Assembly (NCBI GenBank): GCA_947499125.1
Contig: CANMMP010000005.1
Location: forward strand, 186,001 to 250,000
Direction: 5' to 3'
Source: an uncultured Pontibacter sp.
Lineage (GTDB): Bacteria; Bacteroidota; Bacteroidia; Cytophagales; Hymenobacteraceae
DNA length: 64,000 nucleotides
Shown here piece after piece: positions 3,301 through 32,472 of this stretch. A program made the position numbers and the translations under genes. Position 1 is the stretch's first letter. Each line of letters begins with the position of its first letter. The notes beneath the pieces are model-generated. The model was not told where the DNA came from, made no database searches, and worked only from the letters and a program-made list of their open reading frames with translations.

Positions 3301-3502
3301 TATCCCTACCTCATTAGTAGACCGGACCCCATTTAATGGAGCCAGTATTTTCTTTACCGGGCGTAACCTGTTCTTAATTAGCGACTATCCAAACTTTGAC
3401 CCCGAAACAAGTGTGGGCGGGGCAGGTAACTTCCAGGGTCTGGAGTATGTGTCGTTGCCTCAGACCAGAAGCTACGGTGCCGGTATCAAAGTATCATTTT
3501 AG
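317..3502 (+). CDS. SusC/RagA-family TonB-linked outer membrane protein
   Basis: A 1061-residue TonB-dependent outer membrane transporter of the SusC/RagA type, which imports oligomeric nutrients together with a SusD lipoprotein. Seen: a Sec signal peptide ending in ALAQ near residue 22; a carboxypeptidase-regulatory-like domain at about residues 24-105 (VSGTVTDQATGQSLPGV); a plug domain at about 120-255 with VVDGMPIES and the family signature LYGLRASNGVVIITTKKG; then a long beta-barrel ending in the terminal aromatic residue (AGIKVSF). The length is typical for the family. It lies 17 nt upstream of the SusD-like gene, so the two form an operon. No regulator or glycoside hydrolase is adjacent, so the substrate (glycan or peptide) cannot be named. 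Confidence 0.95.
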   Translation: MKKLLLLSFVLMFTLFQQALAQGRTVSGTVTDQATGQSLPGVAIIVQGTTVGTSTNVDGAYTINVPAGSNTLEFRYIGYQTVTRNVGNATTINVALAADAQQLSEVVVTAFGIEKEEKALSYSVQQLEGETVSKAGQPNVTNAIQGKVAGVVVRQSSGMPGSSSTITVRGNRSFTGNNQPLYVVDGMPIESNAPAQLGGAGPGTGGVSGADASARALDINPNDIESISVLKGGAAAALYGLRASNGVVIITTKKGRGAGAKKGATVTFNTDYTLDEVSKLPDLQSTYSQGSGGAYSGVTSLSWGPTISSLGTITDPLGNERPGNRIFDNVDPFFETGHTWNNAINIANSGELGNYAVGFSFTDQKGVVPTTGMERYTGKVAGDYKLNEKVTLGISANYSDIDIQKIPGGSNLSNPLFTLYAAPRTFDLWGLPFAQPDDPYRQVNYRSAIDNPRWSLANNEFTEQTRRIIGSSNITYKPLDWIGINYRFGVDYFITNGKEVYELGSGFTGGRTNPPSGGQITDYALDQNQVNSNISVNFNRDITEGINLNLLIGNEAYDIRSRRIFNVGNGIPIGGFRNIASTTSQLTNEVISRRRVVGFYSSLELGYNDYLFLNATARQDYVSNLPRDNRSFFYPSVGVGFVFTDAFQLDYDWLSFGKIRASYAEVGAAPDNPYQTRNIFVGGGSGSGFLNDGIIFPFNGLNAYSLSDIIRSDQLRPQNTKTIEFGGDLRFLDNRITLDYTYYTQRTEDQIFAVPIAPSAGFTSEIRNAGELETRGHELVVGLIPFRSEGFQWEITTNFSSYENEVLSLAEGVENIFLGGFATPNIRAQAGAAYPIIFGTSYVRDDAGNIVVDSREFIEGEANPYYGMPLQGPATNIGNVQPDFEMSFTNNFSFKGVTLTAQLDWRKGGKTYAGNTRLLKLYGMAELTEDRETPTVFGGSKGFIDEDGNLVVEGPNDIPILQGQTFWSEAMDAITESNVYSTTFVRLREVTLGYTIPTSLVDRTPFNGASIFFTGRNLFLISDYPNFDPETSVGGAGNFQGLEYVSLPQTRSYGAGIKVSF

Positions 3503-3519
3503 AAGATAAATTTATTCAT

Positions 3520-4944
3520 ATGAAAACTTATAAGTTTCTATCATACATACTATTGGCGGGGCTATTACTGGTAACTAACTCTTGCAGTGAAGATACACTG
3601 GATGAGATAGATACAAACCCGAATAGCCCTACTGATGTGACGATAAATCTGCTGCTGCCACAAGCGCAAGTAGATGTTTCATTTGCCGTAACTAATACGG
3701 ATGTCGCCTGGTATTCTTCTGTTTTTGTGCAGCACACCGCAGGGGTACATGCGCAGTTACAAGCCGCTGACCGTCGCTCAGGCTTAAACGATGCGACGCT
3801 GGTGAACAATACCTGGACAACAATTTATGCTACTACTTTACCCGACCTGAACCTGATCATTGAGAAAGGGTCTGAAGGCGGAGACGAAGAAGGCAGATGG
3901 GTGGCGGTAGGTATAGCCAAGATATTAAAAGCTTATACTTTGGCAATTGCAACCGATACATGGGGACGTGTTCCATTTTCAGAAGCTACGCAGGGTACTG
4001 CAGCGCGTAAGCCGGTTTTCGATCCGCAGGAACAGGTTTATGCCGGCATACAACAGCTGTTGGATGAGGCTATCGTGGACTTAGCGAAAGAGAGCCCGGG
4101 CCCAGGATCGCGTGATCTGATCTATGGCGGCGATATAGAGAATTGGACAAAAGCTGCCTGGTCTTTAAAAGCGAGGTATTATAACCGCCTTAGCAACATT
4201 GACCCTACAGGCTCTGCACAAGATGCGCTGGATGCAATTGCAAATGGCTTTACAAGTTCAGACGACAATTTGGTGTTCAGTTCGTTTACAACAGATGCAA
4301 CTGGCCAGAACCCCTGGTATCAGGAAGCTGCCGACCGCGCACACCTGGCAGTTAGCCAACAGTTTGTGCAAACGCTGCAATCTCTTAACGACCCAAGGCT
4401 GCCTATACTCGTAGATGTAGCCCCGGAGACCGGAGAGATCACAGGTGCGCCAAACGGCACACAGACGAACGACCAGTCAAGTGAGAAGTTCTCTGACCCT
4501 ACAGAATTTGCCTTAAACGAGACATCTCCTGTACAGCTTATGACCTACGACGAATTAAAGTTTATTGAGGCTGAAGCAAACCTGAGATTAGGCAATGCAG
4601 CGGCCGCAGCAACAGCATTTACAGAAGCAGTTAGTGCAGCAGTGCAACGACAGACTCCACAGGTATCAGGTGCACAGGCTACGGCTTATGCTGCTTCCGT
4701 GGTAGCAGGTGGCATTACATTGGAGAATATTATCCGTCAGAAGTGGATCTCTTTCTGGTTGTTTCAGCCAATAGAAGCGTTTGCAGATTACAGGAGAACG
4801 GACCTGCCAGCTCTTACACACCTTGTGAGCCGTGCACCATTAAGGTTCCCATATCCTCAGAGTGAGTTGGATGCCAATTCGGCCAATGTGCCGAATGTAC
4901 AGCTTACAGATGGCGTATGGTGGGATGATGGCAGTGAGGATTAA
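3520..4944 (+). CDS. SusD/RagB-like nutrient-binding outer membrane lipoprotein
   Basis: A 474-residue surface lipoprotein that caps the SusC-like channel. A lipoprotein signal peptide ends in the lipobox TNSC near residue 22, so Cys would be lipidated. The body is alpha-helical TPR-like, as in the SusD-like family, with typical features: a DTNPNSP segment after the lipobox, TDTWGRVPFSEA in the middle, and LRFPYPQSELDAN followed by VWWDDG at the C-terminus. It is the second gene of the susC-susD operon and is followed by a strong hairpin terminator. The pairing with a SusC gene makes the assignment firm; the ligand is unknown. Confidence 0.93.
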   Translation: MKTYKFLSYILLAGLLLVTNSCSEDTLDEIDTNPNSPTDVTINLLLPQAQVDVSFAVTNTDVAWYSSVFVQHTAGVHAQLQAADRRSGLNDATLVNNTWTTIYATTLPDLNLIIEKGSEGGDEEGRWVAVGIAKILKAYTLAIATDTWGRVPFSEATQGTAARKPVFDPQEQVYAGIQQLLDEAIVDLAKESPGPGSRDLIYGGDIENWTKAAWSLKARYYNRLSNIDPTGSAQDALDAIANGFTSSDDNLVFSSFTTDATGQNPWYQEAADRAHLAVSQQFVQTLQSLNDPRLPILVDVAPETGEITGAPNGTQTNDQSSEKFSDPTEFALNETSPVQLMTYDELKFIEAEANLRLGNAAAAATAFTEAVSAAVQRQTPQVSGAQATAYAASVVAGGITLENIIRQKWISFWLFQPIEAFADYRRTDLPALTHLVSRAPLRFPYPQSELDANSANVPNVQLTDGVWWDDGSED

Positions 4945-6216: not shown

Positions 6217-7683
6217 CTACTTTTTTGGCCATGTAAATGTAAAAGTTGCTCCCTGGCCGGGTTCTGAATTCACCCAGATGGTGCCTCCCTGCCATTCCAC
6301 AATCTTCTTAACGATGGCAAGGCCTACTCCAGTACTTTCCACGGCATCTCTTTCTTGTAACGTCTGAAAAATTACAAAAATACGCTCGTGGTAATCGGCA
6401 TCTATACCCGGCCCGTTGTCTTTGACCGAGAAAGTATAATATTCTTCTGATTCCTTAAACCCTATGGTTATCAGGCCTTCCTCCTTATCGTTATACTTTA
6501 TTGCGTTGCTGATCAGGTTCGAAAAAACTTGCTGCAGTTGTATACGCGCTGTAAAAATAACCGGTAACGCCTCCGGGAAAATTATTCTGAAATGAGGCGG
6601 TATATTTATAAGGTCCACGGTGTCGTGCAACAGCTCGCCTACATCTACCTGTTCGTCTACCGGGGTAGTCCGGCCAATGCGGGCCAGCGCCAGTATACCG
6701 TTTATCAGGTTTTCCATGCGGTGCACGCGTGTGCGCATCATAGCCAGGTATTCCCTTACATTTTCCGGCAATTGGCGTCCCATGTCTTCCTCTACCCAAC
6801 GCGATGCTACCTCAATTCCACGCAAAGGCGCTTTCAAGTCATGCGATACCACATAAGCAAACTGGTCAAGTTCCTTGTTTTTGCGGTCCAGCTCCGAAAA
6901 GGTTTCATCAATGGTGGTAGCCATGGAATTCAGAGACAGCGACAGCATACTCAGTTCATCGTTAGCATTATCGTTGATCTGGGTTTTGTAGTCGCCTTTG
7001 GATATTTTATCGGCCAGGTTCACCATTATCATGATACGGGTTGATATAAGACGGGTGATGTAATAAGCCCAGCTTAAACCAAGTATAACGGATATAATAG
7101 TAAGTATAGTAGATACCTGGCGCGTGTTTTCTATACTGTTGCTCAGGCGGTTGAGTCGATCTTTACGTACTTTGTATTCGTACGCATTAAAATCCTTAAA
7201 CGCGACACGCAGGGAGTCCATCAGGTCCTTCTCGCCAACCAGCAGGCTATCTACTTTAAAGCTTATGTCTTTAACGGTGCTGTCAGCCATGTCTGCACGG
7301 GTAATGGCTATCAGCGGTTCAGCGTAATCCTGTTCCCAGCGCTTTTGTACATCAACTATATATCTCAGCTTGCTTGTTTGTTCCGGGGTATAAGTTGTAT
7401 AGGTTGATAACTCTTTGAACAGGCGGGGCATCAGCTGTTTTGCCTGCGTATATGGTATCAGGAAGGTCTCGTTACCGTTCAGCAAAAAGCCACGGATACC
7501 GGTTTCCATATCAATTATATTGCGTTGCAGGGCAGCAGAGTTACGCACTACTACCTGCGAGCGGGTTACCCAGTCCGAGTTCTCAATCACATCTTCCGAA
7601 AGCCGGAAGTTAACTATAGCCACAGCCGTAAATAATGCCGAAATAAGCAGGAACCCGACAAACAGCTTTACCGATAATTTCAT
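6217..7683 (-). CDS. Membrane-bound CHASE3-HAMP sensor histidine kinase
   Basis: A 488-residue sensor kinase. Order seen: TM helix 1 at residues ~7-27; a CHASE3-type extracytoplasmic sensor at ~40-185 containing DMETGIRGFLLNGNE; TM helix 2 at ~190-212; HAMP at ~212-265; HisKA with the phosphoacceptor H281 in VVSHDLKAPLRG; and HATPase_c with the N box (NLISNAIKYND), G1 (VKDNGPGID) and G2 (STGVGLAIVKKIVE) motifs. The catalytic domain resembles phytochrome-like kinases, which commonly pair with Rcp1-type regulators such as the gene that follows. CAAAGATA at 7759-7766 reads as TATCTTTG on the coding strand, a possible -7 element, but a good -33 partner is missing. The ligand is unknown. Confidence 0.93.
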   Translation of the reverse strand: MKLSVKLFVGFLLISALFTAVAIVNFRLSEDVIENSDWVTRSQVVVRNSAALQRNIIDMETGIRGFLLNGNETFLIPYTQAKQLMPRLFKELSTYTTYTPEQTSKLRYIVDVQKRWEQDYAEPLIAITRADMADSTVKDISFKVDSLLVGEKDLMDSLRVAFKDFNAYEYKVRKDRLNRLSNSIENTRQVSTILTIISVILGLSWAYYITRLISTRIMIMVNLADKISKGDYKTQINDNANDELSMLSLSLNSMATTIDETFSELDRKNKELDQFAYVVSHDLKAPLRGIEVASRWVEEDMGRQLPENVREYLAMMRTRVHRMENLINGILALARIGRTTPVDEQVDVGELLHDTVDLINIPPHFRIIFPEALPVIFTARIQLQQVFSNLISNAIKYNDKEEGLITIGFKESEEYYTFSVKDNGPGIDADYHERIFVIFQTLQERDAVESTGVGLAIVKKIVEWQGGTIWVNSEPGQGATFTFTWPKK

Positions 7684-8003
7684 GTACAGGAATTATTTTG
7701 GAATACCACACAAATCTGCCATTAGCTTACCGGGTTGGTAGTAAGCATTATAGCGGAACAAAGATAAGGTTTACTAATTAAAGTGGTTGATGACCTTGTA
7801 TGGCACCTGGCTCTCGGCGAGCGGAATTGAGTAGTTTGTGTTTAGATGTAGGGGCATAGCAATACGTGTTTTGGCTAAAATGTTCTGGGGTTTACGGCCG
7901 GGTAAGTATAGAGTTACAGTTATATTAAAATAAAAAAATATGAGCCTGAGAGCTCTGGGCTGGCTTTTCCTGGTGTAGTGTTTAAGTGTTTGATAATGAG
8001 TTA
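7684..8003. other. Intergenic region between kinase and methyltransferase
   Basis: No gene is seen. The right-hand end carries a weak minus-strand terminator for the methyltransferase (about 7930-7961) and the left part must hold the kinase promoter. Several copies of the window-wide AA(C/G)TATA(A/G) word occur here. Confidence 0.5.
7930..7961 (-). terminator. Weak candidate terminator of the methyltransferase gene
   Basis: Read on the minus strand, a short stem (AGCC / GGCT with partial inner pairing) is followed by a T-rich run (ATATTTTTTTATTTT). The stem is short and mismatched, so the call is tentative. Confidence 0.4.
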
Positions 8004-16167: not shown

Positions 16168-16196
16168 ATAGACCTGGCAGTGTGCGCAGCTCCTGA
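16168..16196. repeat. 29-nt repeat shared with 37865-37893
   Basis: Reads AATAGACCTGGCAGTGTGCG then CAGCTCCTG; the copy at 37865 differs at three positions. Both are intergenic and in the same orientation. Confidence 0.75.
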
Positions 16197-16251
16197 GAGT
16201 CTAATATCCCAAACTTATTTCGGGATGTATGATGTTTTATATTTTCTCTCC

Positions 16252-16334
16252 TGTCATTTCGAGCGTTAGTCGAGAAATCTTATATGTCCTATAGCTTCTC
16301 TATTGTCATTTCGAACATTGGTGAGAAATCTTAT
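16252..16334. repeat. Two tandem copies of a TGTCATTTCGA...GAGAAATCTTAT repeat
   Basis: Copy 1 is 16252-16282 and copy 2 is 16304-16334. Both start TGTCATTTCGA and end GAGAAATCTTAT, with a variable centre. I recall similar words as scattered repeats in other Bacteroidota genomes, but could not search. Confidence 0.7.
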
Positions 16335-16635
16335 GTGTCTTATAGTTCAAGCTGCTTTCTACTTTAACCAAGCTATAGTTCTATAGTTACTACTTATCCT
16401 GGGAGCTCTACATGCCTACAGTTTTATAGTTTCCTTGGCTCGCTCACGGCCGCGAGGCCTCTTCTTCGGGCATCGCGCTGCTGCTTTCTTGCTATCCTCG
16501 TACCTCGGATTGCCTGCGGCACCGCAACAAATCAAAGGCGCTCAACCCAAAGACTGGAAAGCTTCTCATAGCCACCGCCTAACTATAGGTTAAAACTATA
16601 AGCTTCGACCTTTTCTCGTGGCTATAAATCTGTAG

Positions 16636-16655
16636 GGACAGGTCGCGACCTGTCC
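16636..16655. repeat. Perfect 20-bp palindrome (GGACAGGTCGCGACCTGTCC)
   Basis: The 20 bases read identically on both strands, centred on TCGCGA. It lies in the repeat-rich tract and is not next to a gene start. Confidence 0.8.
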
Positions 16656-16705
16656 GCTCAATACCGTAAACTATAAAACTATACAGAATTTACAGCTATT
16701 ACAGA

Positions 16706-16736
16706 AACTGTCCCCTTGAGGGGACTACAGGGGTGT
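16706..16736. repeat. 31-nt repeat, identical copy at 43020-43050
   Basis: Contains the palindrome CCCCTTGAGGGG followed by ACTACAGGGGTGT. The same 31 nt recur without a mismatch at 43020-43050, and an inverted copy with four differences lies at 43107-43137. This is good evidence for a dispersed REP-like family. Confidence 0.85.
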
Positions 16737-16880
16737 TTAGGCTGCAACTATAAAACTATAAAGCCATCAAAAGCGACAACCAAAAATTCCCCGCCTTAGA
16801 CAAGTCGTAGATCCCGGACTTGATTCGGGAGAGGGGTTAGGGGTGGTTGGATAACACCAACTATAAAACTACTGCAGAAA

Positions 16881-19667: not shown

Positions 19668-19749
19668 GCGCACGTGGCGAAATTGGTAGACGTGCAGGTC
19701 TCAGAAGCCTGTGCCTTCGGGTGTGGGAGTTCGAGTCTCCCCGTGCGCA
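19668..19749 (+). tRNA. tRNA-Leu (anticodon CAG)
   Basis: An 82-nt tRNA. The acceptor arms GCGCACG and CGTGCGC pair perfectly, with discriminator A; the anticodon stem CAGGT/GCCTG encloses the 7-nt loop CTCAGAA with anticodon CAG; the long variable arm (TGCCTTCGGGTG) marks class II; and the T arm is GGGAG TTCGAGT CTCCC. CCA is not encoded. It decodes CUG leucine codons. Confidence 0.97.
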
Positions 19750-19759
19750 CATTATCTTA

Positions 19760-21178: not shown

Positions 21179-24040
21179 ATGTTAACAAACTATAAATCCA
21201 TACTTCTCCTCTCTATCAGCATTGCTTTTGCACTGCCAGCACTCGCCCAGCACCCCGACGATTTAACAGCTGTCCGGGAAAAGCTGCAGCAGGAGAGGCA
21301 AGATGCGAAGACAGCAACTGTAGCACCAGCCGAAAAAGCAGAAAGATTGCTGGAACTGGGTCTGTGGGAAAATGCGGAGCAAACTATAAGATCAGCAAAA
21401 GAGACTGTTCCGGTTATACTTGCCAAAGCAAAGCTGGCTATAGTTAATAACGAATTTGAGCAGGCAGAAAAGCTGGTAACGCAGGCCCTGAAACTACAAC
21501 CCGAATCTGCGGATGCACTGCTGCTGCAAAGCAAGCTACAGGTGCAGGCCTGGGAACTGGAGAAAGCAAAAGCTACTGCCAACAAGATATTGGCCAAAGC
21601 CCCGAAGCACGAAGCTGCAACGATACAGATCGGCCGGATTTTGATGCTGCAGAAAAAGCACGACCAGGCACTGAAGAAAGCGAAACAGGTACAACAGCTC
21701 AATCCGAAAAACGCCGATGCGTATTTGCTGGAGTCGGATGTGCACTTCTGGAACCAGAAGCCCGAACTGGCCGAAAAACCGCTTATCACCAGCCTTACCT
21801 TAAACCAGTTTAACCCCGATGCCCGCTTCAACTATGGCTATGCGATATGGCGGCGCGTGGATGCTACCCAGCTAAACAACATGGCTGCGCAATGGGAACT
21901 GGCATTGGAACTGAATCCGCTGCATTATGTAACACACTGGCACTGGGGCAACGGCCACACCAACCTGACTTACGCCGATTACGCCCAACCCGAAGACGAT
22001 ATAGTAAGAAAAGAGCTACAGAAAGTTGACGGATTGATAGCCCGGAATAAGCTACAAGATGCCCTCGTAAAGGCTTCAGAAGTACAAAGACAGTATCCGC
22101 AATCGGTATTGCCGGCTATGCTGCGCGGTTCTGTATTTTATATGGCTTTTGATATGGATCGTGCCCAGCGGCTGGATTCTGCCCAAGCTATCTTTCAGAA
22201 AATCTTGAAACGCAAAAAACACTATGGCCCGGCACACAATGCCCTGGCTGCGGTCATCAAGCAAAAACAACTACCATACCTGCACAACTACGATTCGCTA
22301 CAACAGGTTATCCAAAGTACAACTATAAAAGACCCTGTAAATTTTGCGCGTGTATTCCCGGATGTAACCTATTACCCCGGCAACGAAGTGCAGAAAATGG
22401 TGTGGTCGCAACTATACGAGAGCATTGTATACTTCCCGTTCCTGAGCAGGCAAAACGAAAAGTTCGTGATTCCGCCGTTGCACCACGACCTGGCAATGGC
22501 CATGAACTCGCCATACTTCCGGCAGGCCACAACTTTTGATAACCGCCAGTGGATGGACATACGCGGTGTAGGAAGCGGAGCGGCTGCTATTGAATATGTG
22601 GTGCGTGGCTCGTACCTGGAGCGTAACGTAGTGCTGCACGAATATGTGCACCAGTTTCATGGGAGGGTGTTTACCGATGCTGAGAACCGCGAAGTGCGCC
22701 GCCTGTACCAGAACGCCATGAAGGAGAACCGGACCCTGGATTATTATTCTGCGAACAACGAGCACGAGTATTTGGCGCAAACTTACCCGGCCTATTTCGA
22801 GCCTGTAAAAGTGCACCCACTCAACCATAAATCCATTAACACCACCGCCGACCTCAAAGCCAAAGACCCGGATCTTTATACTTTCCTGGACGGATTGGTG
22901 AAACGCCAGAAAGCTTACCTGGCAGGAGATAAACAGGCCATGGCCAGCAACTGGGCCGAAGTATACCTGAACTTGTCGGAGCGGGAACTGGCACGTCGTA
23001 ACTATAACCGGGCCTATGCACTGCTCGATACAGCCCTGACCTGGGATGCCAGCTATCAGCCTGCATTAATCTCTTTTGCCGGCGTAAAACGGGAGCAGAA
23101 CAAGTATAACGATGCCGAGAGGTGGCTGAATAAAGCACAAAGTATAAACCCAAGCTACGCACCGGTATATGTGGCCAAAGCCGAACTGCTGGAAGCCATG
23201 CGTCGCGATGGAAAACTGGAAGCCACCGAAGCTTTAAAACAACAAGCAGAACTATACCGCAAGGCCCTGGAACTGGAAGATGACCTGATGACGCGCGCTG
23301 GTGTAAGTATGGCCTTTGCTAAACTATACGCCTCGTATGGTCAGGTGCCGGAAGCCATCATTTTAAGCGAAAGCTATGTTAAAGATGCCTCTACCGTATC
23401 GACGTACCTGCGTGATCGCCGCGACGAAGCCCTTGCTTATGCGCATTGGCTGAAAGGCACTACAGGCAAAGCACCGGAAAGTGAAAAGGAGCTGGCAAGG
23501 CTGGTGTCTCTTAAACCACAGAACTATGAACTTCGCCAGCAATATGCCGATGTGCTGGCGGCCCAGGGCAACTATAGAAAAGCATACAACACCCTGCATG
23601 AGGCCCAGCGAATTTTAGCTGCCAGTGGCACACCGCGTGCGTCTTATATGCTGCGGATGGCTGATTACCAATTAGCTTTAGGGTTAACTGACTCGGCTAA
23701 AATTACCTTACAACCGCTTTTAAACAGCAAGCAACGTGCGAACGGCGATGTTTATAAACTAATAACACTGCTGGCCCGCTTTGGCGAGACTGATAAAGCT
23801 ACCGAAATGCTGCGCCAGCAAACGCGTCCCGAAACATCGGCAGAAGCCGCAGCCCGTTTAACCGCAGTTGGCGTACTTTGGGAAGAGTTGCAAAAGCCTA
23901 AAATGGCCCTAAAATCTTATAAAGCGGCACTACGCGAAAACGAATTTCAGTATGAAGCCCGTGTGTTGCTGGCCGACCTACTCAGGAGCCGTGGCAAAGA
24001 AAAACAGGCCGATGCTATACTTGCCGAAACAGGGATTTAA
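21179..24040 (+). CDS. Secreted TPR protein with a gluzincin-type metallopeptidase domain
   Basis: A 953-residue exported protein; the signal peptide ends in LPALAQ near residue 24. TPR repeats fill about residues 50-290 and 590-950 (for example AKANKILAKAPKHEAATIQIG and NRAYALLDTALTWD). Between them, an HExxH zinc motif is present at H487-E-Y-V-H491, followed about 45 residues later by NNEHEYLAQTYPAYF, which could supply the third (Glu) ligand as in gluzincins. This suggests a periplasmic or surface peptidase embedded in TPR scaffolds; the substrate is unknown. It starts 5 nt after the lipoprotein gene and precedes the histidine phosphatase gene by 31 nt. Confidence 0.85.
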   Translation: MLTNYKSILLLSISIAFALPALAQHPDDLTAVREKLQQERQDAKTATVAPAEKAERLLELGLWENAEQTIRSAKETVPVILAKAKLAIVNNEFEQAEKLVTQALKLQPESADALLLQSKLQVQAWELEKAKATANKILAKAPKHEAATIQIGRILMLQKKHDQALKKAKQVQQLNPKNADAYLLESDVHFWNQKPELAEKPLITSLTLNQFNPDARFNYGYAIWRRVDATQLNNMAAQWELALELNPLHYVTHWHWGNGHTNLTYADYAQPEDDIVRKELQKVDGLIARNKLQDALVKASEVQRQYPQSVLPAMLRGSVFYMAFDMDRAQRLDSAQAIFQKILKRKKHYGPAHNALAAVIKQKQLPYLHNYDSLQQVIQSTTIKDPVNFARVFPDVTYYPGNEVQKMVWSQLYESIVYFPFLSRQNEKFVIPPLHHDLAMAMNSPYFRQATTFDNRQWMDIRGVGSGAAAIEYVVRGSYLERNVVLHEYVHQFHGRVFTDAENREVRRLYQNAMKENRTLDYYSANNEHEYLAQTYPAYFEPVKVHPLNHKSINTTADLKAKDPDLYTFLDGLVKRQKAYLAGDKQAMASNWAEVYLNLSERELARRNYNRAYALLDTALTWDASYQPALISFAGVKREQNKYNDAERWLNKAQSINPSYAPVYVAKAELLEAMRRDGKLEATEALKQQAELYRKALELEDDLMTRAGVSMAFAKLYASYGQVPEAIILSESYVKDASTVSTYLRDRRDEALAYAHWLKGTTGKAPESEKELARLVSLKPQNYELRQQYADVLAAQGNYRKAYNTLHEAQRILAASGTPRASYMLRMADYQLALGLTDSAKITLQPLLNSKQRANGDVYKLITLLARFGETDKATEMLRQQTRPETSAEAAARLTAVGVLWEELQKPKMALKSYKAALRENEFQYEARVLLADLLRSRGKEKQADAILAETGI

Positions 24041-24071
24041 ACTATAAACTAAACAAATAACCACTTTACAA

Positions 24072-24623
24072 ATGAAACTACACCATTACTTCAGGTTTAT
24101 ACTTGTGTTGGTAGCAGGTATATTGTTATCGTGCCAAATGGCACCACAGCAGTCATCGGACGCTAAAACCGAAACTACTATTTTTGTAGTGCGCCACGCC
24201 GAAAAAGCTGATGCAGACCCAACAGACCAGGATCCGGCCCTGGCACCGGAAGGCGAAGTAAGAGCACAGGAATTGGTAAAGTATATGAAAGGGAAGAAGA
24301 TCGATGCTATTTTCTCAACGCCTTATAAGCGGACACAAAGTACCGTGCAGCCTTTAGCTGAGCAAAATGGCCTTACCGTGCAAACCTATAACCCAAAAGA
24401 TAATGCTGCTCTTAAGGCTCAGGTAATGCAGAACTATACCGGTAAAACGGTTGTAATTGCAGGTCACTCTAATACCATACTACCTATCGTGGAAGCTTTT
24501 GGCGCTACAAAGCCTTTCGATGCGGTAGCTGATAGCAAGTATGATCATATATTTAAAATAACCATATCAGAAGATGGCACTGCTACAATAGAGCCTGCTA
24601 CCTACGGAGCCGCTACAAACTAA
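24072..24623 (+). CDS. Histidine phosphatase family lipoprotein
   Basis: A 183-residue exported member of the phosphoglycerate-mutase-like superfamily. The lipobox is LLSC near residue 21. Catalytic features are the RHAEK motif (phospho-accepting His), STPYKRTQST (second Arg) and the late AGHSNT (second His). The domain is short, as in SixA-like proteins. Its location is the periplasm or outer membrane; the substrate is not predictable. It is the last gene of the 20-24.6 kb group, followed by a terminator. Confidence 0.9.
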   Translation: MKLHHYFRFILVLVAGILLSCQMAPQQSSDAKTETTIFVVRHAEKADADPTDQDPALAPEGEVRAQELVKYMKGKKIDAIFSTPYKRTQSTVQPLAEQNGLTVQTYNPKDNAALKAQVMQNYTGKTVVIAGHSNTILPIVEAFGATKPFDAVADSKYDHIFKITISEDGTATIEPATYGAATN

Positions 24624-24645
24624 TAACAGAGGAACTATTGGTGAG

Positions 24646-24680
24646 AGCCCTTTGCTGGAAAGTAAAGGGCTTTTGTTTTT
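24646..24680 (+). terminator. Terminator of the histidine phosphatase gene
   Basis: Stem AGCCCTTT / AAAGGGCT with a 10-nt loop, followed by TTTTGTTTTT. It lies 22 nt after the stop. Confidence 0.85.
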
Positions 24681-25132
24681 CAGGATGCCTGGGTAGGGCT
24701 TTCTTCCCGTACCACGTAAGCGTCAGCGAGTTTGTTGTGCAGGTATCGGTTGCCCGTTAGCGACAGCCCTCTTACAAAACGGAGCAGCAGAATAACTAGC
24801 GATATAGGTCGCAGGAAATAACGGATGCTGGCGCTTTTAAAGGAAACCCGCTCGTTGTAGCTGTTCGTTACTTTTATACTTGTCAGGTATTTTCCCAGTG
24901 TGGCTTTTAATTCACTCGACTCAGCTCCTGCAAAGTATAACCAGCCTAACAAAATATAGATCAGTATCTCAGGTTTCCATAAAAAGGTGGCTTCGTTACT
25001 GCTGATGGTATAATAATCGGCGATGGCAGCAACTACAAGTATAAGCCCGGCATCTATCAGTAAAGCTAAGGTGCGCACTGGCAAAGAAGCAGGCGAGAGC
25101 CGGGTGCCCGAATTTACATGGTAAACCTGCAT
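24680..25132 (-). CDS. RDD family membrane protein
   Basis: A 150-residue inner membrane protein with three hydrophobic helices. The RDD signature is represented by LPVRTLALLIDAGLI at the N-terminal end of helix 1 and by the later ATLGKYLTSIKVTN segment, as in the RDD family; the R-D-D triad is R20, D28 and a changed third position (a Ser/Asn region), so it is a divergent member. Function of the family is mostly unknown (proposed transport). It overlaps the end of the terminator of the convergent phosphatase gene. Confidence 0.82.
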   Translation of the reverse strand: MQVYHVNSGTRLSPASLPVRTLALLIDAGLILVVAAIADYYTISSNEATFLWKPEILIYILLGWLYFAGAESSELKATLGKYLTSIKVTNSYNERVSFKSASIRYFLRPISLVILLLRFVRGLSLTGNRYLHNKLADAYVVREESPTQAS

Positions 25133-25215
25133 TATTTTATAGTATAGAAGGTCCGCGTTATGGTTTTTGTATACTATAAAACTTTAAACAAGTTGGGTTA
25201 TGGTTAGTTGAAATA

Positions 25216-25710
25216 TTAAAAAATAGGGAGTTGAGTGGCTGGTTGCCTGATGCCTTCGTGCTGTAAAAGCCATTTTTTCCGCCATAAACCGCCCGAGTAA
25301 CCAGTCAGGCTGCCGTCGCTGCCAATTACACGATGGCAGGGCACAATAAGACAGATCGGATTTTTACCGTTTGCAGCTCCAACCGCCCGAATCGCTTTTT
25401 CGCCGGATACAGCTTTTGCCACTGCCATATACGAAACTGTTTTCCCGAAAGGTATAGTGCTCAGGTTTTGCCATACTTTTTGCTGAAATTCAGTGCCCTC
25501 CGGCTGCATCGGAATATCAAACTGCCTGCGCGTGCCGGTAAAATATTCGTCGAGCTGCACTATAGTTTGCTTTAAAATCACAGGTTGCTCCGGGGTTGTA
25601 GGATAGGGTATATCCGAGAACAGGCATGACACCAGGTGGGTCTCTGTAGTAGTTAGGTTCAGGTAACCGATCGGTGTGTGGTAACTGCAGGTATAAAAAG
25701 TAGCAAGCAT
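25216..25710 (-). CDS. ogt: Methylated-DNA--protein-cysteine methyltransferase
   Basis: A 164-residue O6-alkylguanine-DNA alkyltransferase. The active-site motif PCHRVIG contains acceptor C125; the helix-turn-helix is represented by FQQKVWQNLSTIPFGKTVSY and the asparagine hinge by AIRAVGAANGKNP. The frame is open up to a TTG at 25773, but ATG at 25710 gives the normal N-terminus (MLATFYTCSYHTPIG) and is preferred. It repairs O6-methylguanine and O4-methylthymine by suicidal transfer. It is monocistronic and is followed by no obvious terminator. Confidence 0.93.
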   Translation of the reverse strand: MLATFYTCSYHTPIGYLNLTTTETHLVSCLFSDIPYPTTPEQPVILKQTIVQLDEYFTGTRRQFDIPMQPEGTEFQQKVWQNLSTIPFGKTVSYMAVAKAVSGEKAIRAVGAANGKNPICLIVPCHRVIGSDGSLTGYSGGLWRKKWLLQHEGIRQPATQLPIF

Positions 25711-25790
25711 AGTTAAATGTACGGAAATGGTGGGTATGGTGCAATTTATAGTTGCAGGAAGTACAGCAGTCAATAAAACAAGAAAATTTC

Positions 25791-25905
25791 GTATTCAGAA
25801 TTTTACTTATTACCGTCTACTTCTTCGTAATCAACATCGGTTACGCCGCCATCGTTAGCAGCTTATCCCTGCGGACCGCCAGTCTGATTATTTTTACCAT
25901 CACTG
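25791..25905 (-). pseudogene. Decayed second copy of the dnaK 3' end
   Basis: Plus-strand bases 25791-25860 align with 28591-28666 at the dnaK 3' end: 20 bases with two differences, a 6-nt gap, then 50 bases with two differences; similarity then fades to about 25905. On the minus strand it reads GGPQG, stop, [19 protein letters not shown], stop, i.e. the conserved DnaK tail with an internal stop and two fewer codons. No promoter or start is present. It lies just upstream of ogt on the same strand as dnaK. It marks one edge of a 2.8 kb segment whose other edge is the real dnaK end. Confidence 0.85.
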
Positions 25906-26378
25906 CTTTTGAACCGAAAATCTTTAATAGTTCAGATGAGTTGATGTAAATAGAAATTTCTTCAGAACTAAAGCCTATTTTGGAGTACTTTCTTTGCTAT
26001 ATACTTCGCCATATTCTTATCGCCTATCTTGTTATGCTGGTTTATGGAATACAGCCACTTTGTTTTGCCCTAAATTAAAATGTTACTTTTTGATATAAAC
26101 ATTCCTTTTAGAAAGTATAGTATTAGTTTACTTTGGTAGTAGTATAAAAATGCATGATGAAGGAGGCGAAGGAGATTTAAAGATAAAATTATTCCTTGGG
26201 TGACCTCTACATTAAACTGAGACAGCTACAATTTACTCTTACATAGCTGTTCATACTTTTATAAACCAACATACATTTTATACCATAGTCTTGATTTTAA
26301 TATTAATTAAACGAGTAATAGCTTATTGCTGCTCATAGTTCACACAAAAATTAATGTTTAACTTTAATTGACTATTTA
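25906..26378. other. AT-rich intergenic region
   Basis: No supported gene. The base composition is clearly richer in A+T than the flanking housekeeping genes. It separates the dnaK remnant from the accessory lipoprotein gene and must hold that gene's promoter; no convincing TAnnTTTG element was found. Confidence 0.5.
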
Positions 26379-27746
26379 ATGAAACAAACCTGCTTCTTAC
26401 TTTTCTGCTTTGTACTGTTGCTCTTTTCTTGCGAGAAGAACCTGGATACGGAGGAAATTGTACCTAGGACTGAAACTTTATCCATTATTCAGAGGGCACA
26501 ATCGGTGTTTATTAACGAGTACCAGTCTAAGAGAGATTCAATAGACAAAGCCTTAGGACGCTATGGACCTAAGTTTATTAAGGTAGACTGGAATAGAGCT
26601 GTAGATAAAAGAATATCGCTCGGTAAAGCAGTGGTAGCACCACTTGTATTTGAAGGTAACCTGTATGAGAGCTTTGGGAATAATAAGCGTAAGTCTGCCT
26701 TAAATGAAAGCACGTTTTTGTACATGTACAAAGATAAAAACCAAAACATGCGCATAGAGGTTGTAAGATACATAGCAGATGATGCTTTTGTGCCTGAAGC
26801 ACGAAAATCCTTCCTGGGTTTGGTTGTAGTAGAAGATCTGGCTGGTAATTTCTTAGCAGGGTATCATTTCGGAGAAAATAAGGTGACGCCAATTAGCCGT
26901 ATTTCAGGTTCTGCAGAAGTTGCAATCAACACTACAACAGGAGTAACCGCTATATGGTGTACAACTACTACCTGGTATTCATGTTCAACTTACGATGGGG
27001 CAGAACATTGCGTTGTAGTAGGTGTGGACAGTTATTGTTACGATGACGGAGTAGGCAATTTTAACCGTGACATTGAACCTGGAGACTATGGAGGTGGAGG
27101 AGGCCTACCACAGCCGCCTAGCCCCTGCGACCTAGCAAATGCACTGGCACAAGATCAAAGTTTTGTAGATAAAATGAGCGACTTGAATGTCAAGACCTCA
27201 GAGTCCTATGAATCTGCTTACATAGCCAAAAGAAGCAATGGCACTACTTCTTACGACTATATTAAAGGAGGACAAAATGGTGAAGACTTTAATTTTTCCC
27301 CAGGTATGTTTAATGGGAGCACAGGGTTTTATCATAACCATGAAAATAATCCCGCTAACCTTTCAATTTTTAGTTTGTATGATTTACAAGCACTTTATTT
27401 GATTATTAGTCAGGGAGGAGTATATAGGGAACATAATTATACCTTTGGCCTTGTTACCTATCATGGTGATACGTATCTTTTAGTAGTAGAGGATCCAGCA
27501 AAATTTCTGCAATATGGCTCTTCTCTCTTAGTTCCGGGTAGTATAGATATATTCGCCTCTACCTATAATAATCTCATAACATTATCAAATACAAGAATGC
27601 AGAATGAGGCTAACTTTAGAGCTATTTTAAATATAAATGGAGGAGCTGGCGTTAAATTACTTAAAAGCGCTACTAACAACTTTGGTAACTGGAAGCAGGT
27701 TGGTGTAGACGCTAACGGTAATGCTATTTACGCAGATTGTAATTAA
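26379..27746 (+). CDS. Lipoprotein with JAMM/MPN-like metal motif
   Basis: A 455-residue exported protein; the lipobox LLFSC is near residue 18. Residues ~30-180 are a soluble N-terminal region of unknown family; a Gly/Pro-rich linker (about 235-250) follows. The C-terminal part (about 255-440) contains H319-N-H321, then S332-L-Y-D335, i.e. H-x-H-x10-S-x2-D, close to the JAMM metalloprotease pattern H-x-H-x7-S-x2-D. The spacer is longer than standard and the upstream catalytic Glu is not certain, so the assignment is inference. AT-rich; forms an operon with the following gene (20-nt gap), inside the segment bounded by the dnaK duplication. Confidence 0.7.
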   Translation: MKQTCFLLFCFVLLLFSCEKNLDTEEIVPRTETLSIIQRAQSVFINEYQSKRDSIDKALGRYGPKFIKVDWNRAVDKRISLGKAVVAPLVFEGNLYESFGNNKRKSALNESTFLYMYKDKNQNMRIEVVRYIADDAFVPEARKSFLGLVVVEDLAGNFLAGYHFGENKVTPISRISGSAEVAINTTTGVTAIWCTTTTWYSCSTYDGAEHCVVVGVDSYCYDDGVGNFNRDIEPGDYGGGGGLPQPPSPCDLANALAQDQSFVDKMSDLNVKTSESYESAYIAKRSNGTTSYDYIKGGQNGEDFNFSPGMFNGSTGFYHNHENNPANLSIFSLYDLQALYLIISQGGVYREHNYTFGLVTYHGDTYLLVVEDPAKFLQYGSSLLVPGSIDIFASTYNNLITLSNTRMQNEANFRAILNINGGAGVKLLKSATNNFGNWKQVGVDANGNAIYADCN

Positions 27747-27766
27747 TTAAATATAAGCAACCTATT

Positions 27767-28279
27767 ATGAAGAAGTTTATTTTTTCCCTGATCCTGAGTA
27801 TAACAGCTTATACTATTCACGCTCAAGATAGCAAACCGGCTAAAAAAGAGAGTGCCCATAAGATTTCAGATATTAAGGATGACAAAATTGATAAATACGC
27901 CGGCATCTGGGTAAGTAAGCAGGGCAATGAGGTGTTCACGCTAAAGCTAAAGAAAGTAAACAGGAACATGGGTAGTGAGAATGATCCTCTTTACGTAGAA
28001 GCGCTTTTAGGGAGCTATTCTTATGTTGTTGACGGAGAGGAAATTGTGAAAATATCCGATAGTGAAAATGCTGTCGCAGGAGGATCTCTCGGAAAAGAAG
28101 GCCCCATAACTATTTATATGACAGATAAAACTAGTGGCAAACGCGGTGAGGGAACGCTTATGCTGGTGAGCAAGAATACTTTGAACTGGCAAATTGGGAA
28201 TATAAAGGAGGACTTTTTTGGTAACAATAAGAAAGCATTTACTATTCCGACCAGCCTGACGCTTAAGCGGGTAGAGTAG
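27767..28279 (+). CDS. Small secreted protein, DUF6705-like
   Basis: A 170-residue exported protein; the signal peptide ends in IHAQ near residue 20. The mature part starts with a Lys/Asp-rich stretch, then a beta-rich domain (YAGIWVSKQGNEVFTLKLKKV, VEALLGSYSYVVDGEEIV, GEGTLMLVSKNTLNWQIG) that reminds me of the small Bacteroidota DUF6705 family; that match is from memory and needs checking. It follows the JAMM-like lipoprotein gene by 20 nt, so the two may act together at the cell surface. Confidence 0.7.
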   Translation: MKKFIFSLILSITAYTIHAQDSKPAKKESAHKISDIKDDKIDKYAGIWVSKQGNEVFTLKLKKVNRNMGSENDPLYVEALLGSYSYVVDGEEIVKISDSENAVAGGSLGKEGPITIYMTDKTSGKRGEGTLMLVSKNTLNWQIGNIKEDFFGNNKKAFTIPTSLTLKRVE

Positions 28280-28602
28280 CTGTAATTTTTTGAATAATAC
28301 CATTATTAAATCATAAATTCGTTTATACGCTCTTCGCTCGTCTCTGGTGAGTGTGCGTTACCAGCGGGCTCTGGCCGCGTTGATTTACGACCTATAGTTG
28401 TGCAACGTGGCGGGACACCACTGGGAGCTCACACGGGATGCGAGCAAGGGCACACTTTTAAACGCACAACCGATTTGATTATAGTATAATACCCTTAAGA
28501 CAACCTGATTATCAGCCTCGGGTCTTATTAGACAGGCGACACTTAAAACAAAAAGCCCCGCTGAAACCAGCGGGGCTTTTCTATAGTTGCGTATTCGGAA
28601 TT
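28280..28602. other. Intergenic region between the accessory gene and dnaK
   Basis: No gene is seen. A GC-rich block at about 28330-28465 is unlike the AT-rich accessory genes beside it and I cannot identify it. The dnaK terminator lies at the right end. Confidence 0.5.
28551..28580 (-). terminator. Terminator of dnaK
   Basis: Stem AAAAGCCCCGCTG / CAGCGGGGCTTTT with a 4-nt loop; the A-rich plus-strand flank gives T-rich sequence on the minus strand. It lies 22 nt beyond the dnaK stop. Confidence 0.9.
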
Positions 28603-30546
28603 TTACTTGTTGGTATTACCGTCTACTTCTTCGTAATCAACGTCGGTTACGCCGCCATCGTTGGCATCAGCGCCTTGCGGCCCACCAGCCTGGCCATTAC
28701 CGCCAGCTTGTGCACCGGCAGCGCCTTCTTGTCCGGCACCGCCGGCTGCGTACATTTCCTGCGATGCTGCACTCCAGGCATTGTTCAACGCTTCTAACGC
28801 TGCATCAATTCCTGCAATATCTTTAGCGCCATGTGCTGTCTTCAACTGACCAAGCGCAGATTCGATAGCAGTTTTATTACCTTCCGATAACTTATCGCCG
28901 TACTCTTTCAGTTGCTTTTCGGTCTGGAAGATCATAGAGTCAGCTGCGTTCAGTTTCTCGATCTCTTCCTTCGCCTTCTTATCAGATTCAGCGTTGGCTT
29001 CAGCTTCCTGGCGCATGCGCTCAATTTCCTGCTCGCTCAATCCAGACGATGCTTCGATACGGATCTTCTGCTCCTTACCGGTCGCTTTATCTTTAGCTGT
29101 TACATGAAGTATACCGTTGGCATCGATGTCGAAAATAACTTCGATCTGCGGAACACCACGAGGTGCTGGTGGAATACCATCTAAGTGGAATCTACCAATG
29201 GTGCGGTTGTCGCGGGCCATTGGGCGCTCACCTTGCAGTACATGGATCTCTACAGACGGCTGGTTATCAGATGCTGTAGAGAATGTTTCTGATTTTTTGG
29301 TCGGGATAGTTGTGTTAGACTCAATTAGTTTAGTCATTACACCACCCATTGTCTCGATACCCAGTGAAAGCGGCGTTACATCCAGCAGAAGTACATCTTT
29401 TACTTCACCTGTTAATACACCACCCTGAATCGCAGCACCAATCGCTACAACTTCATCCGGGTTCACACCTTTAGATGGCTTCTTACCGAAGAACTTCTCA
29501 ACTTCTTCCTGTACTTTCGGGATACGTGTAGAACCACCCACCAGGATCACTTCGTCAATATCAGAAGTTGATAGGCCAGCATCCTGAAGCGCCTTGCGGC
29601 AAGGCTCCATAGAACGACGGATCAGATCATCAGTCAGTTGCTCGAATTTAGCACGCGTTAACTTGCGTACCAGGTGCTTTGGCACACCGTCAACCGGCAT
29701 AATGTATGGCAGGTTGATCTCTGTTTCGTTAGAAGATGAAAGCTCAACTTTTGCTTTCTCAGCAGCTTCTTTCAAACGCTGAAGTGCCATTGGGTCCTTA
29801 CGCAGGTCAATGCCTTCGTCGTTCTTGAATTCTTCTGCCAGCCAGTTAATGATCTTCTGGTCAAAGTCGTCACCACCAAGGTGTGTATCACCATTCGTAG
29901 ATAGTACTTCAAACACACCATCACCCAGCTCAAGTATAGAAATATCGAAAGTACCACCACCTAAGTCGAATACCGCGATCTTCTGATCTTTGTGTTTTTT
30001 ATCTAATCCGTAAGCAAGCGCTGCTGCTGTTGGCTCGTTAATGATACGCTTCACTTCAAGACCTGCGATCTGTCCGGCTTCTTTAGTAGCCTGGCGCTGT
30101 GCATCGTTAAAGTAGGCTGGTACCGTAATAACGGCTTCCGTTACAGTAGTACCCAAGTAATCTTCTGCAGTAGCCTTCATCTTCTGAAGTACCATCGCTG
30201 AAATTTCCTGTGGCGTATACTCTCTGTCGCCGATCTGAACGCGTACCGTGTTGTTGCTGCCCTGCTGTACCTTGTAAGATACCTGCTTGGCTTCTTCGCT
30301 AACTTCGTTGTAGCTGTGGCCCATAAAACGCTTTATCGAAGCGATCGTGTTCTGTGGGTTTGTAATTGCCTGGCGCTTGGCAGGGTCACCTACTTTACGC
30401 TCGCCATTACCACCATCCAGAAACGCAACGATAGACGGCGTTGTTCTGCGGCCTTCGCTGTTAGGTATAACCACTGGCTCGTTACCTTCCATTACGGCAA
30501 CGCAGGAGTTGGTTGTACCCAAGTCAATACCTATTATTTTTCCCAT
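28603..30546 (-). CDS. dnaK: Molecular chaperone DnaK (Hsp70)
   Basis: A full-length 647-residue Hsp70. ATPase signatures are [13 protein letters not shown] near the start, [15 protein letters not shown] and [14 protein letters not shown]; the substrate-binding domain has the [14 protein letters not shown] linker, and the C-terminus is Gly/Ala-rich, ending in [13 protein letters not shown]. It refolds proteins with DnaJ and GrpE, neither of which is adjacent. No CIRCE operator or heat-shock promoter was recognised upstream. A decayed copy of its last ~100 bases lies 2.8 kb away on the same strand. Confidence 0.98.
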
Positions 30547-30978
30547 TATATAGTTTTATTATAGTTTCCTATCTAAAAATTCTTTTCAGTTGATAGCGTT
30601 ATTGCAACCAATATGCCAACCGGTTTTAAGGCTGGTTTTTATGTCATAATGTCACGAATGCAACAATGGCTTATAGTTTTGTCGGATAATTGGCATAGCG
30701 CTTTGTAGTAGCACCGCCATAATTGCTGTATGCGTGCGGCAGTCTTGGCAAAAGATAAAAATCTGGAGGGAGGAAGTATAAAAAAAACAAAAGCCCCCGC
30801 TGCAGAAGTAACGGGAGCTATGTTCACTTTAACACCTAAAACACATTTATAGAAAGTCCTGAACTATAACCTGCACCGGAAGCAGGCCAAAGCGCAGCGG
30901 CTTTCTATATACAGGAGTACCTGTAAGTATAAAAGGGTTGCATGTCGTAAAAAAATATTTTGGAATGACTGCTCTGGT
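30547..30978. other. Intergenic region upstream of dnaK
   Basis: No gene is seen. It holds the dnaK promoter region, in which I recognise no clear element, and the terminator of the polytopic membrane protein gene at 30792-30819. Confidence 0.5.
30792..30819 (-). terminator. Candidate terminator of the polytopic membrane protein gene
   Basis: On the minus strand, AGCTCCCG and CGGGGGCT pair (one wobble) around a 12-nt loop, followed by TTTTGTTTTTTTT. It lies 160 nt beyond the stop codon, which is rather far. Confidence 0.65.
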
Positions 30979-32472
30979 TTACTGTAGTTCCGCTTTGCCA
31001 GCTGAGCGTAAAGTATGCAGGTTGCTTATTACAGGCGGATTTGGCTCGGTTAACCTGACAGAATCTTTGCTGAAATAATTTGCAACTCCTTTGTTTATCC
31101 AGTGCCGGCTTAGCGTCAGGCGGTCGGTTTCCTGCCCCGATATTACATCGGCAAAGTAAATGGTTTTGGGTATGGTTGGCAGTGGGGGGAGGAGGCAGGT
31201 ATCGCAGTCAGCTGTTTGTAAAGTTCTATAGCGTTCGTTCAGGGCTTGGTTGTAAGCAGTAGCTTTTCCGGAAGCTAAGTCTATGTAGGCGGTAGTGATG
31301 TTGCTATCGATGTGTAGCACGCTGAGTATAAATATGAACAGCGCCATTAAAGGAAGTATAGCCGGTGTTTGTGTAATTGTAGTTAGCGTGTGTTTATACT
31401 TACAGATAAAGGCCTGCAGGAGATAAAACCAGCCAAGTATAAAAAAGAAGTAGATCACGTTCTCCAGGCGCGGGGTAGGGCGCTCGCCAGTAGACCACGC
31501 AAACAAAAAGTTCATCAGGAAAATAGTGCCCAGGAAGTATAAAACAGCCAGCCAAGGGTTTATGTTAAAAGTACGGCCAGGTTTTGCTGCCAACGGAAGT
31601 CCGAAATAAACGACATACACCATCGAAGCCGCCAGCACAGGTATAATCCACCTATAAAATGATAACGCTGTCATAAACCCAGTATACGCCACCGACCATA
31701 TTAACTTGCCTGCATTGGGTTGGTCGCTCATGCGGTTATAGTTGCCTGGTGCTAAAATGGCTACAGCACAGGCCGCCAGGCAAACTATAAATAGGAATAG
31801 CAGGTATGAGCGTGCTTCAGGGTTTTTATAGTTTACTATAGTTAGCAGCAAGTTAGTAGTAAATGCCACGACCAGGATCATTTCGTTAGAGCCAACTATA
31901 GCCACGCAAAGTATAGCCGCCAGTCCGATGTATAGTTTCTTCTGCAGTTTTGTATTCGCCTGAAAGAGCTTATAAACCAGCACCAGCATCAGCATAAATA
32001 AAATATGCGGCATCTGGTAAGTAGCATAGGTCGAGAAAAAGTAAAATGCCTCGGAGATGCTGGGTGCCTGCAGAAAATATAAAGTTAGTAGTACAGCTGC
32101 CAGCGCAACACTCCATACTTTGTTGAAAACGCGCTCTGTAAGGCTGCGCAGGAAAAAGTATAAAACACCAGCAAATACGCTTATCAGAACTGCTGCATAC
32201 AATTTATAAGCAAACAGGCTACCGTAGATCATGGGGTTCAGCCGGAACATGGTGATGGTGCTGAAGTAGCGGCCCGTCCAGGAAGTATAGAATTCTTTAA
32301 AAACAGTAATGTAGTCCGTTGATCTGTCGCGAACGGCAAAACTAAAGTCATCGGCGGCAGGGTGCGTGTAAATGGTGAGTAACAGGAACGGAAGTAATGT
32401 GTATAGCCCCAACCCGATGAGAGTATAAAGTATGAGATTTTGAGTAGCAGGTTGTTTGGCTAATGGAGGCAT
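30979..32472 (-). CDS. Polytopic membrane protein (possibly DUF6056/GT-C-like)
   Basis: A 497-residue inner membrane protein with about 10-11 hydrophobic helices. The first loop contains HPAADDFSFAVRDRSTDYITVFKEFY and SWTGRYFS, an acidic pair after helix 1 of the kind seen in GT-C-type glycosyltransferases and in the DUF6056 group; the C-terminal ~100 residues are soluble. The assignment to either group is from memory. Substrate and partner are unknown. It is preceded by a hairpin (32554-32585) that separates it from the peptidase gene, and many AGTATA/ACTATA words lie in its coding sequence. Confidence 0.75.
   Translation of the reverse strand: MPPLAKQPATQNLILYTLIGLGLYTLLPFLLLTIYTHPAADDFSFAVRDRSTDYITVFKEFYTSWTGRYFSTITMFRLNPMIYGSLFAYKLYAAVLISVFAGVLYFFLRSLTERVFNKVWSVALAAVLLTLYFLQAPSISEAFYFFSTYATYQMPHILFMLMLVLVYKLFQANTKLQKKLYIGLAAILCVAIVGSNEMILVVAFTTNLLLTIVNYKNPEARSYLLFLFIVCLAACAVAILAPGNYNRMSDQPNAGKLIWSVAYTGFMTALSFYRWIIPVLAASMVYVVYFGLPLAAKPGRTFNINPWLAVLYFLGTIFLMNFLFAWSTGERPTPRLENVIYFFFILGWFYLLQAFICKYKHTLTTITQTPAILPLMALFIFILSVLHIDSNITTAYIDLASGKATAYNQALNERYRTLQTADCDTCLLPPLPTIPKTIYFADVISGQETDRLTLSRHWINKGVANYFSKDSVRLTEPNPPVISNLHTLRSAGKAELQ

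Follow-up and report, generated by a model that had tools for sequence, protein, structure and literature searches.

Genomic islands can integrate at the 3' ends of genes through tyrosine integrases. Classical minimal mobile elements are exchanged by homology on both sides, and a remnant of a gene tail is not required. Insertion with long target duplication has been found in Helicobacter pylori (Nobusato et al. 2000, as described in PMC1643837), and homology-facilitated illegitimate recombination was proposed for the type VI effector-immunity arrays of Vibrio cholerae (PMC5361080). The present analysis concerns a 64,000-nucleotide stretch of the genome of an uncultured Pontibacter sp. (the window; genome G000), in which a segment with two genes lies between the 3' end of dnaK and a decayed copy of that end. 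Sequence comparison supports the view that the segment is an insertion scar.

As in islands that a tyrosine integrase sets at the end of a gene, the 3' end appears rebuilt and a displaced end stands on the far side, but no integrase was found here and the repeat edges differ. As in the minimal mobile elements of Neisseria, differing genes lie between the same conserved neighbours without a recombinase. The window scar is classed as insertion with long target duplication: in H. pylori, too, inserted genes lie between long direct repeats of the target and were recognised by genome comparison, although in the account of PMC1643837 they are often restriction-modification genes, whereas here they are of secreted or lipoprotein type, sit at the dnaK end in a member of the Bacteroidota and, in one relative (G071), appear in a second round. 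The V. cholerae arrays, as described in PMC5361080, would share a conserved anchor, a non-homologous far join, a displaced older 3' end and successive rounds. Here, in contrast, the anchor would be a housekeeping gene and not an effector, and the mechanism is read from sequence.

The repeated dnaK 3' end

The dnaK gene (28603-30546, minus strand) is an intact open frame of 647 amino acids ending EVDGNTNK, and is the single dnaK-like match at E<=1e-200 in the 3.98-Mb assembly. Alignment places the functional copy of the repeated end at 28587-28692 (minus strand; 90 nt coding and 16 nt past the stop) and a second copy, ending EVDGNK*, at 25787-25886 on the same strand. Aligned as direct repeats, the two agree in 87 of 106 columns and differ by a single 6-nt gap (E ~1e-26); the member at 25787-25886 has decayed. 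The first-pass annotation had reported such a repeat at 25791-25860 with an internal stop. The repeat and its gap are real, but it runs further (~90 nt coding and 16 nt post-stop), and the in-frame TAA, at 25863-25865, falls a little beyond the limit first given. Chance similarity was ruled out by the E value and by shuffling: against 24500-28580 the real tail scored 107 bits, while the best of 500 mononucleotide-shuffled tails scored 29.2 bits. Both copies sit inside a contig (C5) of 346,551 bp, which makes an artefact of contig ends unlikely. No third copy was found in the whole assembly (query 25780-25870, E<=0.001).

Next to the functional copy stands an intrinsic-terminator-like hairpin of dnaK (28550-28582, minus strand; GCCCCGCTG...CAGCGGGGC and a T run). 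A similar hairpin lies 3' of dnaK in relatives, and none is recognisable in the decayed copy. The six bases that give the window DnaK its NTNK ending are missing from the remnant. Among relatives, DnaK ends in NTNK in G066 and G060, in NK in G018, G030 and G032, and in TK in G065.

Between the copies only two open reading frames (ORFs) were found, both oriented opposite to dnaK, and the segment 25893-28586 has a G+C content of 38.3% against 45-46% in its flanks, in agreement with the earlier description of two AT-rich genes.

The dnaK-ogt interval and scars elsewhere

On the distal side of the remnant lies ogt (25216-25728, minus strand; PF01035 and PF02870), a native neighbour. A search of 49 other Pontibacter genomes (50 counting G000) for dnaK and ogt placed ogt less than 5 kb from dnaK in six, with gaps of 909 bp (G065), 1486 bp (G060), 1496 bp (G018), 2325 bp (G066), 2343 bp (G030) and 4294 bp (G032), against 2878 bp in G000. 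All six gaps contained outer-membrane beta-barrel genes (Pfam), with MORN/TonB-like genes also in G032; both window cargo genes were absent from all six, as was any coding copy of the dnaK tail. Seven genomes including G000 hold differing genes between a constant dnaK and ogt. Terminator-only similarities to the dnaK 3' region in G030, G001, G032, G066 and G065 may be ordinary terminator resemblance. The comparison of this junction, which the first-pass annotation had proposed, gave the expected lack of the two genes and presence of other cargo, but no strictly empty junction was seen among the six, which qualifies the insertion reading; an extra loss or replacement event is required in G000 because the beta-barrel genes of its relatives are missing there. 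Synteny of the two genes with the remnant across the family, held to speak against insertion, was not found.

Different cargo bracketed by dnaK-tail copies, the other pattern expected of insertion, was found in G071 and in G212, which belongs to a different genus of Hymenobacteraceae. In G071 (locus L190) the intact dnaK tail (1915-2047) is followed by a MORN/TonB-like gene of family F25 (2080-3345), a tail copy with terminator (3647-3779; 89% over 133 nt), a gene we take to be DltD-like, an MBOAT gene (PF03062), an outer, third copy (6651-6783; 62% ungapped over 133 nt, 88% over 94 nt by BLAST) and the genes F7/F9, presumably the ATP-binding cassette export pair wzm/wzt. Two successive copies thus each close a different cargo, and the outermost is the most decayed. 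F7 is the first ORF after dnaK in 5 of the 50 genus genomes (G019, G023, G025, G029, G036). The order in G212 is dnaK, a 172-amino-acid gene with one weak PADLOC match (NsnC, E 1.5e-4), an 82-nt tail copy at 93%, four ORFs including a broken lipoprotein, and the backbone gene F20; F20 or F8 comes first after dnaK in 7 of the 15 other genomes compared from its genus (G204, G205, G206, G208, G210, G211, G214). Inserts bracketed by direct repeats of the target can therefore be set against single-copy relatives without the insert in both cases (five for G071, 7/15 for G212); for the window itself, insert-free relatives exist only with other genes in the dnaK-ogt gap. The cargo of G071 and G212 is oriented opposite to dnaK, like that of the window, and cargo G+C is low in G000 and G071. 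The same type of scar arose separately in G000, G071 and G212. In the dnaK terminator of G071 (L190 2010-2045), a G-C pair stands at a position that is A-T in its two copies and in ten relatives; the change is compensatory.

Surveys at wider scale used the exact DnaK C-terminal motif as a pattern, and decayed or terminator-only copies were therefore missed. The motif was present in 165 of 204 family genomes, and was doubled in G000, G071, G212 and G181 (in the last on different contigs). An order-level draw gave the motif in 198 of 390 genomes, with doubles in G000, G071, G230 (different contigs) and G424 (1.9 Mb apart). A more sensitive comparison found coding tail copies only in G000 and G071 among the 50 genus genomes; of 22 further genomes of the family, G212 alone had one, and it had been preselected for its double match. 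A scan of 1957 ORFs (155 loci and C5) returned copies of stop-covering tails at dnaK in G000, G071 and G212, at purE in G009 and at a lipoprotein in G215, two further matches being ORFs inside repeats; G212 and G215 were first labelled paralogues automatically, as the test window included the gene itself, and were reclassified by inspection.

A caveat applies to any claim that dnaK is special. Fisher's test gave p 0.0005 for dnaK (3/73) against other ORFs (2/1884), but two of the three dnaK cases had been chosen beforehand and G208 was counted twice among the 73. Without the preselected cases the comparison was 1/71 against 2/1884 (p 0.11), and the family survey without the index genome gave 2/164 against 2/1884 (p 0.034, with mixed denominators). 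The enrichment is significant only when the preselected genomes are kept, and weak otherwise. A strong claim for dnaK is also opposed by its 5' side, which is poorly conserved as well and no better than the 3' side (89 against 165 of 435 genome pairs sharing similarity, 30 genomes), and exclusivity by three similar scars at other genes. The purE 3' end and terminator of G009 are repeated beyond a beta-barrel gene (L071 5365-5449 and 6907-6993; 78% over 87 nt), the terminator copies differing by a compensatory stem pair (GGCCC/GGGCC versus GGACC/GGTCC). A copy of the 5' edge of wzm (F7) in G069 (L195 3518-3644 versus ~7820-7950; 81% over 131 nt) brackets a 1095-amino-acid gene. Within the cargo of G215 a 77-codon frame (L220 1010-1243) resembles the 3' end of the lipoprotein there (61% over 71 residues), in the order lipoprotein, new partner, tail remnant of a related lipoprotein and old partner, this second partner being 29% related to that of G216. 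PMC5361080 accounts for such a layout in the V. cholerae arrays by homology-facilitated illegitimate recombination. An insertion hotspot at dnaK, which the first-pass annotation had called unusual, is borne out in so far as its 3' end is a recurrent insertion site, but it is not an exclusive one. No paper on insertions at dnaK was among the matches listed for the literature outside subscription journals.

Routes of insertion

The mechanism of insertion set out here is probable, not proven. The repeats, the three different cargoes, the comparison of G071 and G212 with insert-free relatives, the differing breakpoints and the lack of a nearby tyrosine integrase are observed; that DNA was taken up, crossed over at the anchor and was joined illegitimately is what we infer. 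One-sided homologous recombination at dnaK with an illegitimate far join would best explain the scar, and is given about an even chance of being correct. Foreign DNA in which AT-rich accessory genes came after a dnaK 3' end would have been taken up, and the incoming dnaK end would have recombined by homology with the resident dnaK on one side. A non-homologous join would then have linked the far end of the incoming DNA to a point within the resident dnaK tail, so that an intact dnaK was rebuilt and the resident tail was displaced outward, there to decay. A repeat of the event would set new cargo next to dnaK and leave a further remnant outside, as in G071. As an anchor dnaK would be favoured because it is far more conserved at the DNA level than its neighbours, its identity to P. 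fetidus and P. populi being 88-90% against ~75% for the remaining locus. The repeats start ~90, 74, 45 and 27 nt before the end of the dnaK stop; these four different breakpoints are consistent with a non-homologous far junction of variable position, and since the starts differ there is no common core edge. The G215 cargo, with its lipoprotein tail remnant between two partners, also speaks for such a route.

Several observations weigh against this reading. Sliding identity of the window dnaK to 11 species revealed no switch and no mosaic boundary that would mark a donor tract, and no possible donor carrying this cargo next to dnaK came to light. Some post-stop bases are common to the remnant and the functional tail but absent from six relatives, a pattern that duplication within the lineage fits as well as import. 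Polarised differences fall mostly on the copies (9 versus 4 in G000; 8 versus 5 and 16 versus 3 in G071), as plain decay predicts. A two-allele test from synonymous codon changes (3/4 in the G071 tail versus its first copy; 5/6 simple changes in G000, read by eye) favours two diverged alleles, but is suggestive only, the numbers being tiny. The signs of an imported dnaK tail are weak.

The main rival explanation is that site-specific integrative elements attach at the dnaK 3' end and terminator, and that their integrases have been lost, leaving the repeats as old attachment sites. It would account for the rebuilding of a gene 3' end and its terminator, for direct repeats of 82-133 nt, for two elements in tandem in G071 and for the occurrence in three lineages. 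The distribution of F25 also fits it: the four strong relatives (E<1e-90) in the 50 genus genomes, two in G032 (C2:555526-557775), one in G071 and one in G004 (C2:58188-59210), all lie 3' of dnaK although their far neighbours differ, with ~22 weaker relatives (E 1e-29 to 2e-11) elsewhere. However, a search of the dnaK contigs of 10 genomes found no tyrosine integrase (PF00589) within 140 kb of dnaK, the G212 contig being only 12.8 kb long; there was none on C5, as the first-pass annotation had remarked of the segment, and the nearest were ~148 kb (G071) and ~154 kb (G030) from dnaK. The window segment has only two ORFs, neither of them an integrase; no genome-wide search was made for serine recombinases or transposases. 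The cargo consists of ordinary genes only, the same scars occur at the purE 3' end, the wzm 5' end and the lipoprotein tail, and the differing 5' repeat edges offer no fixed core, although different integrases could still account for that. The explanation is unlikely. Of the two routes first suggested, integration or homologous exchange, insertion as such stands, with an integrase less likely than one-sided homologous recombination.

It is rather improbable that a circle with cargo and a dnaK tail entered through a single RecA crossover (Campbell type), or that the target was duplicated on insertion by an unknown route, which would be insertion with long target duplication in the strict sense. 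Either would give exactly the observed geometry, and the post-stop bases common to both G000 copies fit a duplication, but a circle already bearing a dnaK tail, or an unknown enzyme, is needed, and the differing breakpoints would need different circles. Local tandem duplication of the dnaK end and its neighbour, some parts of which were later lost or replaced, is simple, and tandem paralogues do occur in these regions, but it is very unlikely: no duplicated cargo is left, cargo differs on either side of the G071 copies and between species, its G+C is low in G000 and G071, and a plain duplication, the alternative raised at the outset, is inadequate because three different cargoes are bracketed.

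An extension of one-sided recombination would make the Hymenobacteraceae dnaK 3' end a docking platform, receiving integrase-free secreted or lipoprotein cassettes that bear their own dnaK tail and terminator as a homology arm, dock via host recombination, rebuild dnaK and stack as a displacement array with F25 as a resident. This is improbable.

The inserted genes and what the scar would mean

The distal end of the segment is an AT-rich non-coding stretch (25893-26378) with no second copy on C5. Cargo gene 1 (26379-27746, plus strand) is an open frame for a lipoprotein-like protein of 455 amino acids without a Pfam, NCBIfam or PADLOC match. A search of 5.8 billion proteins, which detects only relatives sharing words with the query, returned the protein itself and one relative, mainly over its C-terminal half; that half is common to P0002 (44% identity over 57% of the query). 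Its relatives in the genus are N-terminal only (G035 and G018, 33-34%) and neither is at dnaK. The earlier JAMM assignment found no significant support, the structural model having low confidence (mean predicted local distance difference test score 43.4) and the best Jab1/MPN match an E value of 0.21. Cargo gene 2 (27767-28279, plus strand) encodes a secreted protein of 170 amino acids, whose DUF6705-like character was borne out by a PF20448 match (E 1.7e-19) over its first half; it has one weak relative in the genus (G064) and is possibly the partner of cargo gene 1. A search of the 49 other genus genomes gave no full-length relative of either gene, and neither these genes nor F25 had a PADLOC match that would point to defence. 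At L246 7742-9741, L247 8252-10416 and L205 4673-6611 there are lipoproteins whose N-terminal parts are related and whose C-terminal parts differ, with a small partner gene after each; such effector-partner-like modules thus also occur away from dnaK.

Between cargo gene 2 and dnaK, 28334-28452 resembles a repeat dispersed in the genus, with diverged matches in several genomes and one 69% match on its own contig (C5:124527-124659). A separate family of long non-coding repeats has diverged copies on C5 at window 16170-16871 (C5:202170-202871), C5:108322-109000 and C5:112348-113040. No RNA family scored above its gathering score in window 24000-31500. A tRNA-type target was rejected: the sole tRNA of locus L238 is at window 19668-19750, ~6 kb from the remnant, and there is none in L190, L205 or L233.

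The locus adds a case from the Bacteroidota beside those in Helicobacter and Vibrio, and indicates that new genes can land more than once at the tail end of a housekeeping gene. If one-sided recombination at dnaK is the true route, accessory spots without an integrase would be explained, and conserved, highly expressed genes would act as homology anchors that admit distant accessory DNA without the machinery of mobile elements. Decayed tails would then preserve the order of arrival, so that it could be read from sequence how fast and in which direction genes are passively gained.

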